Below are positions 25,183 to 43,094 of a stretch of 64,000 nt of DNA, in pieces. Where the stretch lies: positions 62,001-126,000 of the forward strand of contig JAMOSB010000007.1 of the NCBI GenBank assembly GCA_027068485.1, read 5' to 3'. Source of the DNA: Sulfurovum sp. Lineage in GTDB: Bacteria > Campylobacterota > Campylobacteria > Campylobacterales > Sulfurovaceae. How positions within the stretch are numbered: the first letter of the stretch is position 1; every line of letters starts with the position of its first letter. Both the position numbers and the translations under genes were made by a program. The notes beneath the pieces are model-generated. The model saw only the letters and a list, made by a program, of their open reading frames with translations, did not search any database and had not been told where the DNA came from.

Positions 25183-25257
25183 TCCGGATTAGCTCAGCGG
25201 TAGAGTAGATGACTGTTAATCATTTGGTCGCTGGTTCGAATCCAGCATCCGGAGCCA
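25183..25257 (+). tRNA. tRNA-Asn (GTT), copy 1
   Basis: Folds as a 75-nt cloverleaf with encoded CCA. The acceptor TCCGGAT pairs with ATCCGGA, followed by discriminator G. The anticodon stem GATGA/TCATT closes the loop CTGTTAA, giving anticodon GTT, and the T-arm is CTGGTTCGAATCCAG. It is first of two identical copies behind a consensus promoter. Confidence 0.97.
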
Positions 25258-25288: not shown

Positions 25289-25363
25289 TCCGGATTAGCT
25301 CAGCGGTAGAGTAGATGACTGTTAATCATTTGGTCGCTGGTTCGAATCCAGCATCCGGAGCCA
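25289..25363 (+). tRNA. tRNA-Asn (GTT), copy 2
   Basis: Identical in all 75 positions to the copy at 25183-25257, including the encoded CCA. It is separated from that copy by 31 nt and is presumably processed from the same transcript. Confidence 0.97.
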
Positions 25364-37642: not shown

Positions 37643-37669
37643 TGAGATGCCTACGGTGTGGGCATCTTA
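37643..37669 (+). terminator. Terminator-like hairpin after purH
   Basis: 9-bp stem TGAGATGCC/GGCATCTTA (one G-U pair) with a 9-nt loop, followed at a short distance by T- and C-rich sequence. It is placed correctly to end the purL-purH transcript. Confidence 0.6.
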
Positions 37670-37774: not shown

Positions 37775-37805
37775 GGGGTTTATGACTTCATCTAGGAGGA
37801 AAACG

Positions 37806-38498
37806 ATGCTCATTACACTTGATCCAAAAGGTATTTTTCTTAAATTGCTTGGGATAATTTTTCTCCTTTTACTGCTTAATGGTATGGGGATTGTGACACA
37901 GCACTATGGATATCATATCTACGGCTTAGTCAAGCTCTTCAATTTTGACTTGGAGACCAATATCCCTACACTCTACTCAGTCGTAGCACTACTCTTTGCG
38001 AGTCTGCTTCTTTTGATGATTACACGCGAACATAAACAGGCACACCAGCCTTATGCTGCATGGCTTGGGTTGATGCTACTGTTTCTTTTTTTGGCGATTG
38101 ATGAGTTTGCATCGATTCATGAACACTTCTCCTACACTCTCCATGACTCCCTTGAGACTTCAGGACTCTTCTTCTATGTGTGGGTAGTGCCGTATGGGGT
38201 GGCGTTTATCCTCTTCTCCTTGCTCTATCTGAAGTTTTTGATGCGTCTTCCTTCACGAAGTCGCCTACTCTTTATCCTCTCTGGAGGGATTTTTGTAGCG
38301 GGGGCGATCGGAATGGAGATGGTAGGGGGGTGGTATCATGAACTCTATGGTGATCAGACCCTTGTCTATGCCCTCCTCTATAGTTGTGAAGAGTTTTTGG
38401 AGATGTTTGGAATTGCACTCTTTATCTATGCACTCCTAGAGTATATGCTTAAGCAGTTTGGTGTGTTGCGTGTTGAAGTAACAAAAGGGAGTCATTAA
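37806..38498 (+). CDS. Uncharacterised multi-spanning membrane protein with acidic/His motifs
   Basis: A 230-aa protein with about six transmembrane helices (approximately residues 12-31, 55-72, 84-102, 122-145, 153-172 and 186-215). The ATG at 37806 has AGGAGG 7 nt upstream, and an in-frame ATG at 37782 does not. Polar residues cluster at helix ends: [10 protein letters not shown] (Asp99, Glu100, His105, Glu106, His107), Glu171, HEL (His178, Glu179) and CEEFLEM (Glu195, Glu196, Glu199). The set looks like a possible metal or active site. It starts the run wecB-wecC-ugd-epimerase with a 1-nt gap to wecB. I do not recognise a named family. Confidence 0.8.
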
Positions 38499-38499
38499 G

Positions 38500-39672
38500 A
38501 TGCAAAAGATACTCCTCGTCTTTGGAACACGACCCGAAGCGATCAAGATGGCACCGTTGGTACTGAAGCTACAAGCAGAGCATGAGACGATAGAGACGCG
38601 TGTCTGTATCACTGCACAGCATCGAGAGATGCTCGATCAGGTACTCGATATCTTTGGGATTGTCCCCGCGTATGATCTTGATATTATGCATGCGGGGCAA
38701 GATCTCTATGATATTACAAGTCGTGTACTCTTAGGGATGCGAGAGGTCTTAAGTGACTATCAGCCTGACCTTGTCTTGGTACATGGGGATACTACGACGA
38801 CCATCGCTGCGGCACTAGGGGCGTTTTATCAGAAGATCTCCGTAGGGCATGTAGAGGCGGGATTGCGGACAGGAGATATCTATAGTCCATGGCCCGAAGA
38901 GGTCAACCGTAAGCTCACCTCTCAAATCACACGCTACCACTTCACGCCTACGATGATGAGTCGGGAAAATCTCCTCCAAGAGGGGGTAGCCGATGAGCAG
39001 ATTATCGTGACGGGCAATACGGTGATTGATGCACTCTTTTGGGTACTAGAGAAGATCGACGCTACGCCTCATCTCAAGGAGCAACTTACCCATACTATCC
39101 AAGCGGAGTTTCCTGCGTTTGGAGATGGTGCGTCGATGGTGTTGATTACGGGGCATCGTAGAGAGAACTTTGGAGAGGGATTTTTGCAGATCTGTCGGGC
39201 GATCGCTCTCTTGGCAGAACAACACCCCCAAGTTCACTTTGTCTACCCTGTCCACCTCAATCCCAATGTCCAAAAACCTGTACTCGAACTCCTCTCAGAG
39301 AAGGCAAATATCTATCTCATCTCCCCTTTGGAGTATGAGTCATTTGTCTATCTGATGCGTCATGCATCGATTATCCTCACCGATAGTGGAGGGATACAGG
39401 AGGAGGCACCTAGCCTTGGGAAGCCTGTCCTTGTGATGCGTGATACCACCGAACGCCCCGAAGCCCTAGAGGCGGGGACAGTGAAGCTTGTCGGAACAAA
39501 GGTAGAGAGGATTGTCGATGAGGTGACAAAGCTACTCATAGAGAGTGCGTGTTATAATGAGATGAGCCAAGCCTCCAACCCCTATGGGGATGGAGAGGCG
39601 TGTGAAAAAATCATAGCGTTTTTAAATCATCGTGGTAGATCAACTATAATAAAGGAAGAGAATGCAAAGTAA
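38500..39672 (+). CDS. wecB: UDP-N-acetylglucosamine 2-epimerase (non-hydrolysing)
   Basis: Interconverts UDP-GlcNAc and UDP-ManNAc, 390 aa, GT-B fold. [14 protein letters not shown] at the N-terminus, [31 protein letters not shown] and [16 protein letters not shown] are all hallmarks of this enzyme. It overlaps wecC by 11 nt, so the product is likely passed directly to UDP-ManNAc oxidation. Precursor role: cell-surface polysaccharide. Confidence 0.95.
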
Positions 39673-40873
39673 AACAGTATGTGTAATGGGATTAGGCTAT
39701 ATCGGGCTACCAACCGCTGCACTTTTGGCAAACCGTAAGTACCATGTGCATGGAGTGGATGTCGTAGAGAGTACCGTAGAGACGATCAACCAAGGGAAGA
39801 TTCATATCGTAGAGCCTGACTTGGATACCTTTGTCCGCTCTGCGGTCAACTCAGGAAACTTAATCGCCTCGACAACACCTAAAAAGTCTGATATCTTTAT
39901 CATCGCGGTACCGACCCCTTTTCATGAGGGGTATGTCCCTGATATCGACTATGTGATTAGTGCGACAGAGTCTATCGTCCCTTATGTCGAGGTGGGCAAT
40001 ACCGTCATACTCGAGTCCACTTCTCCTATCGGTACGACAGAGAAGGTCGCAGAGATTCTAGAGGCAGGGGGGGTAGATATCTCTAAAATCTATATCGCTC
40101 ACTGTCCTGAGCGGGTACTCCCTGGACATATTATGCAGGAGTTGGTTCAAAATGACCGTATTGTAGGGGGGATCAATGAAGCCTCTACCAAGGAAGCTAC
40201 CGCCTTCTACAAAACATTTGTCAAAGGTAAGATTCTCCAGACCGACTCCAAGACAGCAGAGATGGCAAAGCTCACAGAGAATAGTTTCCGTGATGTCAAT
40301 ATCGCATTTGCCAATGAACTCTCTATCCTCTCTGATAAGTTTGGGATTGATGTCTGGGAGCTTATCTCTTTGGCAAATCGTCACCCCCGTGTCAATATCC
40401 TTCAGCCAGGGGTAGGGGTAGGGGGACACTGTATCGCAGTCGATCCATGGTTTATTGTCCACTCTGGTGGGAGTGATGCCAAGATCATCAAGAGTGCCAG
40501 AGAGGTCAACAACTATAAAGCCCAGTGGTCTATCCAGAAGGTCAAAGATGCGGTTGAGGCATTTGAGAAGTCACATGACACCAAAGCCAAGGTAGCGTGT
40601 ATGGGACTCGCCTTTAAGCCCAATATTGATGACCTTAGAGAGTCTCCTGCACTGCTTGTGACCAAGCAGCTTATCGCAGAGGGTATCACCGTACTTCCTG
40701 TCGAACCCAATCTCAAATCTTACAGTGAGTTTACACTCGTAGAGGATGAGGAGGCGATTAATGAGGCCGATATTATCCTCTTTTTGGTAGCCCATGATGA
40801 GTTTAAGGGGATTCGTATCTTTGGTAAGACGGTCTTTGACTTCTGTGGTGTTACACACCATAAAGAGAGCTAA
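39662..40873 (+). CDS. wecC: UDP-N-acetyl-D-mannosamine dehydrogenase
   Basis: NAD-dependent double oxidation of UDP-ManNAc to UDP-ManNAcA, 403 aa. The N-terminal Rossmann motif [14 protein letters not shown] is at residues 10-23, the catalytic Cys is in [13 protein letters not shown] (about residue 259), and the C-terminal UDP-binding domain starts near [14 protein letters not shown]. Assignment to UDP-ManNAc rather than UDP-Glc rests on the match in motif wording and on pairing with wecB. A G7 tract occurs in codons for EAGGVD. Confidence 0.9.
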
Positions 40874-40876
40874 GCT

Positions 40877-42043
40877 ATGAAGATAGCAATCGCAGGGACA
40901 GGGTATGTTGGACTCTCCAATGGTATACTACTTGCACAACATCATGAGGTGGTGGCACTCGATGTGGTTGAGGAGAAGATAGCATTACTCAACCAAGGGG
41001 TCTCTCCGATTGAAGATAAAGAGATTGAGGAGTATCTGGCGACCAAACAGCTCAACTTTACAGCGACACTCGATAAGGAGTTGGCGTATCGTGGAGCGGA
41101 GTTTGTGATTATCGCGACCCCTACGGACTATGACGCAGTACACAACTACTTCAATACCGACTCTGTGGAGTCTGTCATCAATGATGTGATGCGACTCAAT
41201 CCTGAGGCGGTGATGGTGATCAAATCAACTGTACCTGTAGGCTTTACCCAAGAGATTAGGGAGCGGTTGGGGTGTGACAATATTCTCTTCTCTCCAGAGT
41301 TTTTACGGGAAGGAAAGGCACTCTATGACAACCTCTACCCCTCTCGTATCATTGTAGGGGAGCGATCTAAGCGGGCAGAGGTCTTTGCTAATCTGCTCAA
41401 AGAGGGGGCGATCAAAGAGGAGATTACGACACTCTTTACAGACGCTACGGAGGCAGAGGCGATTAAACTCTTCTCCAATACCTACCTTGCGATGCGTGTG
41501 GCGTACTTCAATGAACTAGACTCCTATGCCCTTGTCAAGGGGCTAGATAGTCGGCAGATTATCGAAGGGGTAGGGCTTGATCCTCGGATAGGCACGCACT
41601 ACAACAACCCCTCTTTTGGGTATGGTGGCTACTGTCTTCCCAAGGATACCAAGCAACTGCGTGCCAACTACCAAGATGTTCCCAATAGCCTCATTGGGGC
41701 GATTGTCGATGCCAATAGCACCCGCAAAGACTTTATCGCCGATAGTATCATCGCTAAGAACCCCAAAGTGGTAGGGGTCTACCGCTTGGTGATGAAGAGT
41801 GGTTCGGATAACTTTAGAGCCTCTTCGATTCAGGGGATTATGAAGCGGATTAAAGCCAAAGGGATTGAGGTGGTGATCTATGAGCCTTCACTCAAAGAAG
41901 AGGAGTTTTTCCGCTCAGAGGTGATTGAAGATTTTGAACACTTCAAGCGTATGGCTGATGTCATTATCGCCAACCGCTACACCGATGAGCTAGCTGATGT
42001 CTCTGAGAAGGTCTATACACGCGACCTCTTTGGAAATAACTAA
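40877..42043 (+). CDS. ugd: UDP-glucose 6-dehydrogenase
   Basis: Oxidises UDP-glucose to UDP-glucuronate, 388 aa, the length of the E. coli Ugd. Motifs agree closely with that protein: [10 protein letters not shown] at the start, [15 protein letters not shown], the catalytic Cys in [13 protein letters not shown] (about residue 254), [17 protein letters not shown] and the terminal VYTRDLFGN. It belongs to the shorter class, unlike wecC next to it. The epimerase that uses its product begins 1 nt after the stop. Confidence 0.95.
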
Positions 42044-42044
42044 G

Positions 42045-43094
42045 ATGAAGATTTTAGTGACAGGTTCGGCAGGGTTTATCGGTTTTCACCTCACCCATGC
42101 CCTGTTAGAGCGGGGTGATGAGGTGGTGGGGATTGACAATATCAATAACTACTACGATGTCAACTTGAAGTATGGACGACTCCATGAGCTAGGGGTTGAT
42201 GCCAAAGGGGTGGAGGCATCTCACTTCACCTCGACACGCTACCCACTCCACCGTTTTATCAAGATGGATCTTGCCGATAGGGAGGCGATGGAACGCCTCT
42301 TTGTCACAGAGCAGTTTGACGCGGTGTGTCACCTTGGGGCTCAGGCGGGTGTACGCTACTCGCTAGAGAACCCCCACGCCTATATCGATAGTAATATTGT
42401 AGGGTTTATGAATATCTTGGAGGGGTGTCGTCATGGAGGGGTCAAGAATCTCGCCTACGCCTCTAGCTCCTCTGTCTATGGACTCAACCGCTCCCAACCC
42501 TTTAAGACCTCTGATAGCACAGAGCATCCCGTCAGCCTCTATGCCGCAACCAAAAAATCCAATGAGATGATGGCACACACCTACAGCCATCTCTATGGGA
42601 TTGCCACGACGGGGCTTCGCTTCTTTACTGTCTATGGAGAGTGGGGGCGACCCGATATGGCACCGATGCTCTTTAGTGATGCGATACTCCACCAACGGGC
42701 GATTAAGGTCTTCAATTTTGGTAAGATGAGTCGGGACTTTACCTATGTGGGCGATATCGTCAAGGGGGTGATCAAAGTCATCGATAATCCTGCCAAACCC
42801 AACCCTCAGTGGGATCCTCAAACACCTCAGATCCAAAGCTCCTCTGCCCCCTATCGACTCTACAATATCGGCAACAACGCACCTGTAAGTCTGATGGCAT
42901 TTATCGAGACGATAGAGGAGGCACTCGGGGAGAGCGCAACCAAAGAGATGCTCCCGATGCAAGCAGGTGATGTCGTCTCTACCTATGCCGATACGACAGA
43001 GTTGATACGCGATTTTGACTACCAACCCTCCACCCCACTCAAAGAGGGGGTAGAGGCATTTGTAGCGTGGTATCGAGCATTCTATCGCGATTGA
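42045..43094 (+). CDS. UDP-glucuronate 4-epimerase-like protein (extended SDR)
   Basis: A 349-aa NAD-dependent sugar-nucleotide epimerase. The start at 42045 (MKILVTGSAGFIGFHL) gives the GxxGFIG dinucleotide loop at residues 7-13, and a longer frame overlapping ugd is rejected. The catalytic pair is YAATKKSNE (Tyr-x3-Lys, about residues 165-169), with ASSSSVYG before it. Overall it reads like UDP-GlcA 4-epimerases, making UDP-GalA from the Ugd product. This substrate is inferred from family resemblance and adjacency. Confidence 0.88.
   Translation: MKILVTGSAGFIGFHLTHALLERGDEVVGIDNINNYYDVNLKYGRLHELGVDAKGVEASHFTSTRYPLHRFIKMDLADREAMERLFVTEQFDAVCHLGAQAGVRYSLENPHAYIDSNIVGFMNILEGCRHGGVKNLAYASSSSVYGLNRSQPFKTSDSTEHPVSLYAATKKSNEMMAHTYSHLYGIATTGLRFFTVYGEWGRPDMAPMLFSDAILHQRAIKVFNFGKMSRDFTYVGDIVKGVIKVIDNPAKPNPQWDPQTPQIQSSSAPYRLYNIGNNAPVSLMAFIETIEEALGESATKEMLPMQAGDVVSTYADTTELIRDFDYQPSTPLKEGVEAFVAWYRAFYRD

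Follow-up and report, generated by a model that had tools for sequence, protein, structure and literature searches.

Two published accounts (PMC3146951; PMC9436119) describe CREST proteins as having seven core segments, with three His, one Asp, and one Ser residue arranged in SxxxH, D, and HxxxH motifs. An initial annotation of the window studied here, a stretch of 64,000 nucleotides from a Sulfurovum sp. genome, suggested that an unnamed membrane protein encoded in it might be a metal hydrolase of this type. The protein resembles these enzymes in crossing the membrane several times and in having conserved polar residues toward one face, and Asp, His, and Ser residues are indeed conserved in it. 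Yet its family has one invariant His column rather than three, a site dominated by carboxylates, and six long predicted helices rather than seven segments; the ordered SxxxH...HxxxH pair occurs in just 2 of 84 aligned sequences and is no family trait. Nor did we find a profile match: CREST families are absent from the 17 Pfam families listed for 20 members at an E value of ≤1 and from the 10 listed for 84 members at ≤0.01. No CREST or CPBP entry appeared among the 50 best structural matches listed, which excludes nothing. CREST membership fails on motif and helix count, and we consider it highly improbable.

Microbial rhodopsins, which bind retinal through a Lys in their last helix, are of similar size, and about 190 of the 230 residues of our protein align with them at 5 Å. 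However, the family has no conserved retinal Lys (no Lys or Arg column reaches 60% in 84 sequences) and no match among PDB sequences, and to our knowledge its invariant set of Glu, Asp, and His residues is absent from microbial rhodopsins. Glutamic intramembrane proteases of the CPBP/Rce1 group have the motif EExxxR. Our protein resembles them in having an EE pair and a His, but its family carries EExxE instead (82 of 84 sequences), together with one invariant His and no listed match to a Pfam family; EExxxR is found in only 2 of 84, and we rejected this assignment.

Gene structure and adjoining genes

The gene is real; it encodes 230 amino acids and lies at positions 37806 to 38498 of the forward strand, starting with ATG at 37806 and ending with TAA at 38496 to 38498. 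An AGGAGG ribosome-binding site (37794 to 37799, forward strand) lies 6 nt before this ATG and favors the annotated start over an upstream ATG at 37782. No minus-strand reading frame of at least 80 amino acids overlaps the gene, and the reading frame first annotated is borne out. Between purH and the gene, just past the former, is an inverted repeat with 10-nt arms, a 3-nt loop, and 90% complementarity (37645 to 37667); it is a terminator-like separator and is absent from the list returned by a terminator scan.

On the same strand, the gene is followed by wecB (38500 to 39672), wecC (39662 to 40873), a ugd-like dehydrogenase gene (40877 to 42043), an epimerase-like gene (42045 to 43094), and trpD. 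The ATG of wecB at 38500 leaves the single-nucleotide gap after the TAA that had been noted before. Cut-offs are exceeded for the UDP-GlcNAc 2-epimerase WecB (TIGR00236, 501 bits) and the UDP-ManNAc dehydrogenase WecC (NF008286, 534 bits). The ugd-like product passes the cut-off of the subfamily model TIGR03026 for nucleotide-sugar dehydrogenases and scores 684.9 bits with NF011631, below that model's cut-off of 757, while the nucleotide-sugar epimerase-like product reaches no equivalog cut-off. Elsewhere in the window, two adjacent tRNA genes (25183 to 25254 and 25289 to 25360) have equal Rfam scores and possibly arose by duplication.

A new and widespread protein family

The window protein comes nowhere near a cut-off in Pfam or NCBIfam, has no PHROGs match below an E value of 0.9, and matches no PDB sequence up to an E value of 10; 20 family members gave no PADLOC match at ≤0.01. 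The initial view that no named family fits is upheld by these searches. A defense gene was rejected on the PADLOC result, and a phage gene because a search of 50,697 phage records found nothing that matched the window protein. Two pattern searches of viral contigs returned no match and 15 matches, respectively, none of the latter being a relative. Weak matches of individual members were judged to be noise from membrane composition, since none concerned more than 3 of 84 members and the Pfam search with these 84 listed none of them for the window protein. They include, among the 84 members, the Pfam families Acyl_transf_3 (three members; best E value, 8.7e-5), SUR7 (one; 8.2e-5), and, at 0.0016 to 0.0085, Anthrone_oxy, FtsX, and DUF202 (two each) and five more (one each). 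In searches with 20 members, they include TMEM107 (1/20; 0.0045), DUF4131 (4/20; best, 0.069), and ThiW, TIGR02359 (1/20; 0.00088).

The genome has one place that matches the protein at an E value of ≤0.001, and when 298 genomes of the class were searched with the single sequence, only the protein itself was recovered. In contrast to this narrow set, tblastn found relatives in seven plasmid records from Deinococcus and Rhodobacterales. These "hypothetical protein" genes on plasmids of Deinococcus, Rhodobacter, Parasedimentitalea, Paracoccus, and Sulfitobacter are true relatives that share the invariant residues; they are likewise unnamed, but their gene neighborhoods differ from that in the window. 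A pattern search of genome contigs added 19 relatives from Pseudomonadota, Kiritimatiellota, Planctomycetota, Cyanobacteriota, Bacteroidota, Actinomycetota, Hydrogenedentota, and Rhodothermota, and the known relatives are spread over at least nine named phyla.

We then surveyed genomes with a profile built from 20 sequences (E value, ≤0.001), each count including the genome at the center of the survey. The profile matched 14 of 175 genomes in the protein's own bacterial family (phylum Campylobacterota), 12 of 321 and 13 of 240 genomes in the classes of two other members (L009 and L012), 28 of 214 cyanobacteria (phylum of L014), 5 of 218 Bacteroidota (L016), 16 of 178 Actinomycetota (L018), and 18 of 179 Planctomycetota (L015). 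This amounts to 106 of 1,525 genomes, 7 of the 106 being centers already known to match. A few weak matches are doubtful, and the counts are slight overestimates since two matches appear by eye to be nonmembers: the one at L060 reads as a Doc-like toxin-antitoxin protein, and that at L294 looks like a different membrane protein. The L060 protein (L060:1501-1602) shows similar DExxxxHE letters, a likeness that by eye resembles chance; the short motif alone is thus not diagnostic. The patchy distribution of the family suggests horizontal transfer. The closest relative of the window protein, encoded at locus L111, is 47% identical to it, and their joint branch (95/70) is not among the starred forks of our tree. 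A literature search, with most subscription journals outside its coverage, found no description of the family. Overall, this is a real, well-conserved, and widespread family that is new and unnamed.

Conserved residues

To the window protein we aligned profile matches from loci L002 to L027 and L111 to L170 that covered at least 170 of 235 positions, giving 84 rows. Left out were L008, L130, L170, and the second matches in L018 and L127; also outside the alignment are L162 (the same place as L018), the later loci L286 to L305, and copies that were not retrieved at full length. We regard the long open frames of L121, L126, and L286 as N-terminal artifacts in G+C-rich DNA.

Eight of the 11 acidic and His residues that the initial annotation had singled out are conserved over very distant relatives. 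Four of them, D99-E100-x4-H105-E106 (codons at 38100 to 38123), lie where helix 3 ends on the outer side and the next short helix begins: D99 in 83 of 84 sequences, E100 in 72 (Asp in 11), H105 in all, and E106 in 82. Glu171 (38316 to 38318) is Glu in 72 and Asp in 10, and E195-E196-x2-E199 in helix 6 (38388 to 38402) are kept in 83, 84, and 83. The other three are poorly conserved, namely H107 (4/84), H178 (3/84), and E179 (12/84). Two residues had been missed, Glu50 (37953 to 37955), which is Glu in 83 sequences and Asp in one, and Trp126 (38181 to 38183), present in 83. Gly202 is kept in 79. The family signature is E50, D99-[ED]100-x4-H105-E106, W126, [ED]171, E195-E196-x2-E199; it is complete in the window protein, and each position holds in 82 to 84 of the 84 sequences when Glu/Asp exchange is counted at 100 (83) and 171 (82).

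At a threshold of at least 85% conservation, 9 of 26 Asp, Glu, or His positions pass, versus 5 of 204 others (Fisher P of 1e-6, uncorrected for relatedness). This conservation is partly due to the selection of sequences: the patterns behind L009 to L027 (19 sequences) contained EE-x-LE or WVVP, and the profile that gathered the later members was itself made from the pattern-found set. The tblastn set is free of pattern bias, and in the window protein and its seven tblastn matches D99, H105, E106, W126, E171, E195, E196, and E199 are invariant (8/8). In these alignments, most of the residues first listed are near-invariant, as those of a binding or catalytic site would be, which supports this part of the initial interpretation. 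As for covariation, 10 of the 11 rows with Asp at position 100 also have Asp at 171; on the tree, however, the two positions changed 3 and 2 times, and a single independent pair is supported, which proves nothing.

Predicted structure and topology

The AlphaFold2 model of the window protein is confident (pLDDT, 91.5; pTM, 0.89) and, in agreement with the helix count given previously, contains six long helices, at residues 7 to 33, 53 to 79, 83 to 102, 127 to 146 (with a break at 141), 150 to 181, and 186 to 218. A model from a second subfamily (pLDDT, 88.1; pTM, 0.84) has six long helices as well, followed by an additional C-terminal helix predicted with low confidence. Mean loop charges over the 84 sequences differ between alternate loops. 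The loops after helices 2 and 4 hold 1.94 and 2.70 Lys plus Arg against 0.73 and 0.40 Asp plus Glu, whereas those after helices 1, 3, and 5 hold 1.69, 1.81, and 1.01 Lys plus Arg against 3.74, 2.92, and 1.99 Asp plus Glu; the loops after helices 1 and 3 include E50 and E106, so that about one acidic residue in each is circular. Given the positive-inside rule, this asymmetry suggests that the N terminus is inside and that the conserved cluster lies at the outer face of the membrane. One longer relative, L129, has an N-terminal extension that matches PF23166, the Ig-like domain of alpha-glucan water dikinase (E value, 1.3e-6). We read this extension as secreted behind a signal peptide and followed by one more helix before the family domain, which agrees with an inside N terminus for that domain. 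Both L129 (7431-9260) and another long version, L163 (7944-9296), have a hydrophobic C-terminal extension.

From the helix limits of the model, the four-residue turn between helices 5 and 6 would place E171 and E195 to E199 at a similar depth. In a helix-face analysis, E100, H105, E195, and E199 point to within 7 to 23 degrees of the conserved face of their helix, as does S58 in direction, whereas D99, E106, E171, and E196 are 77 to 122 degrees off. The only significant helix moment is that of helix 3 (P = 0.003).

A Foldseek search had been proposed as a check on the initial annotation, and it matched no solved fold: neither model has a PDB match at an E value of ≤0.001, and none was found among viral models at the same threshold. 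In a structural second look, microbial rhodopsins came first for both models, with Z scores of 8.8 and 7.9 and rmsd values of 5.2 and 4.3 over 196 and 183 residues, Z scores possibly due to chance for helical bundles. Structures of BsYetJ were among the weak Foldseek matches.

Linkage to glycan genes

The position of the gene at the head of a sugar-nucleotide cassette, as first described, is correct for the window locus and only partly so for the family. A first control, in which 40 family loci were compared with 40 regions of the same genomes, found markers of glycan genes at 4 versus 5 loci (E value, 1e-10) and, with more seeds, at 7 versus 6 (1e-5) and 9 versus 7 (1e-3). The glycan-rich loci, having served as the source of the marker seeds, were absent from this control. 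In a wider control, we added 27 pairs, excluded each locus's own seeds, trimmed the two regions of each pair to equal length, and counted L002 and L005 as one seed source. Of the resulting 67 same-genome or same-record pairs, 17 family and 6 control loci have a marker at 1e-5 (discordant pairs, 16 versus 5; sign test P = 0.027, or 0.041 with two Deinococcus loci counted once), and 12 and 5 at 1e-10 (11 versus 4; P = 0.12). At least two markers are present at 10 versus 2 loci (1e-5) and 9 versus 1 (1e-10). The excess comes entirely from the later 27 pairs (10 versus 0 at 1e-5), which represent Deinococcus, Rhodobacterales, Actinomycetota, and L111, besides a few others. The 67 loci were drawn from 87 identifiers (86 distinct, as L018 and L162 overlap) and 20 later loci; the unpaired ones, which include the glycan-rich L006, had too little contig or no usable identifier. 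Two controls are weak, L324 being a short contig and L329 a small plasmid with annotated sugar genes that the seeds missed; with few markers, both sides are undercounted.

We have therefore given up an earlier reading of no linkage, based on the 40 pairs, in favor of a modest, lineage-limited excess. In a minority of lineages the gene resides in glycan clusters, but the majority of loci lie outside such clusters. Linkage to wecB itself is not borne out: a close wecB is present in 28 of 78 genomes of the genus, but only one of 30 wecB loci examined, that of the window, has the membrane protein gene within 1.5 kb. The closest relative, L111, sits in a capsule-like cluster with Ugd, Polysacc_synt, Wzy_C, and glycerophosphotransferase genes, and a wecB lies on the same strand of its contig at a distance of about 9.5 kb. 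At several unrelated loci, glycan contexts are annotated (L002, L004, L005, and L006) or were seen (L161, L163, and L170). Among direct neighbors (146 of 152 scanned against Pfam, six being omitted from the tallies), very many families occur. The commonest listed outside the cyanobacteria are SdrD_B, CarboxypepD_reg, and SpaA, with 4 of 95 each, no family exceeds 2 of 51 in cyanobacteria, and the glycan families among the 25 commonest listed occur in no more than 2 of the 95 and 2 of the 51.

Repeat-protein neighbors and adjacent copies

In the protein's own bacterial family, 6 of 10 loci with the upstream neighbor in view have, next to the family gene and divergent from it, a gene whose product is a secreted Lys/His-Gly-Ser repeat protein (L112:5559-7703, L113:3107-5539, L114:7020-7814, L115:2751-3317, L118:3381-5168, and L120:1461-3119). 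Several of these proteins carry SdrD_B domains, and one of the four SdrD_B matches among the 95 scanned neighbors is that of L120. A homologue of the repeat protein is present in 4 of 7 genus genomes with the family gene versus 6 of 71 without it (Fisher P = 0.004, uncorrected for relatedness), a comparison that takes the 78 genus genomes as a subset of the 175 surveyed.

Several unrelated genomes have a second copy of the family gene beside the first (L134:8004-9798, L286:2373-3925, L287:5684-7371, L018:6415-8612, L127:5206-6527, and L292:5379-6378); some second copies are partial, split between frames, or devoid of EExxE. Such adjacent copies make a paired or hetero-oligomeric form possible. 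Very weak extra profile matches in two distant relatives (L289:5260-6711 and L290:5580-6740) may reflect a second, degenerate copy of the domain.

Proposed function and alternatives

To judge from its conserved residues, the family probably binds a metal or another positive ion near the outer face of the membrane. Most economically, the protein can be read as a membrane enzyme whose metal site faces outward and is rich in carboxylates. This is our best guess, which we put forward tentatively and as falling somewhat short of an even chance. The protein would span the inner membrane with six helices and its N terminus inside, placing E50, D99, E100, H105, E106, E171, E195, E196, and E199, together with Trp126, toward the outer helix ends. 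These nine near-invariant residues may line a single pocket, open to the outside, in which one or more divalent cations are bound, and the metal site would be the catalytic center acting on a lipid-like or surface-exposed substrate. The absence of a conserved basic residue to bind phosphate speaks against lipid-pyrophosphate substrates and makes a metal-bridged or neutral substrate more natural. Since the gene lies one base before a sugar-nucleotide set, with which it may be cotranscribed, the substrate in this organism could be a surface glycan or glycolipid. Conservation across 84 sequences, the 8/8 agreement of the tblastn set, two confident models, and the loop charges all argue for such an enzyme. 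The helix faces are mixed in this regard, as D99, E106, E171, and E196 point away from the conserved ones, and a single His is unusual for Zn hydrolases, which also counts against it.

The same acid-rich outer mouth and the same lack of conserved basic residues would suit a cation sensor, channel, or transporter, in which binding of H+, Ca2+, or another cation at this mouth leads to gating or signaling, with no reaction carried out on a substrate. The first place of microbial rhodopsins, which are pumps or channels, in the structural second look and the appearance of BsYetJ among the weak Foldseek matches point the same way. Yet Z scores of 8.8 and 7.9 lie within what chance may give for helical bundles, no Foldseek match reaches an E value of ≤0.001, and there is no conserved retinal Lys; we regard this reading as fairly unlikely. 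Equally doubtful in our view, though made somewhat more likely by the wider control, is a protein of glycan assembly, whether modifying enzyme or accessory, that works with adjoining sugar-nucleotide or polysaccharide genes. It draws on wecB at 1 nt on the same strand, on L111 inside its Ugd/Polysacc_synt/Wzy_C cluster, on the marker counts over 67 pairs (17 versus 6 at 1e-5, 12 versus 5 at 1e-10), and on the seven other loci with glycan contexts. However, the excess comes from few lineages (10 versus 0 in the later 27 pairs against 7 versus 6 in the first 40), some three-quarters of the paired loci lack any marker, and both the wecB loci of the genus (1/30) and the commonest direct neighbors (at most 2/95 and 2/51) tell against a general link.

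An enzyme, such as a new intramembrane peptidase, that processes or anchors secreted surface proteins would account for the repeat-protein neighbors at 6 of 10 loci, the SdrD_B domains in 4 of 95 neighbors, and the co-occurrence of the repeat homologue in the genus (4/7 versus 6/71). But the window gene, L111, L116, and L117 lack such a neighbor, no C-terminal sorting signal was seen by eye in the repeat proteins whose ends were read, and EExxxR is confined to 2 of 84 sequences, leaving this proposal quite improbable. As for the metal-site enzyme, a bolder form of it, in which phylum-crossing small membrane enzymes carry a carboxylate-bridged multimetal center on the outer face and catalyze an undescribed reaction, strikes us as unlikely.

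The controls warn against calling the gene a polysaccharide gene from its neighbors in the window alone. The family itself is broad, with matches in 106 of 1,525 genomes and members in at least nine named phyla, and it is unnamed in all libraries searched. Nine near-invariant charged residues in a protein of 230 residues make for directly testable mutants. If the multimetal form is true, a center of up to eight Glu or Asp residues and one His would be unlike those of His-rich membrane hydrolases and desaturases.
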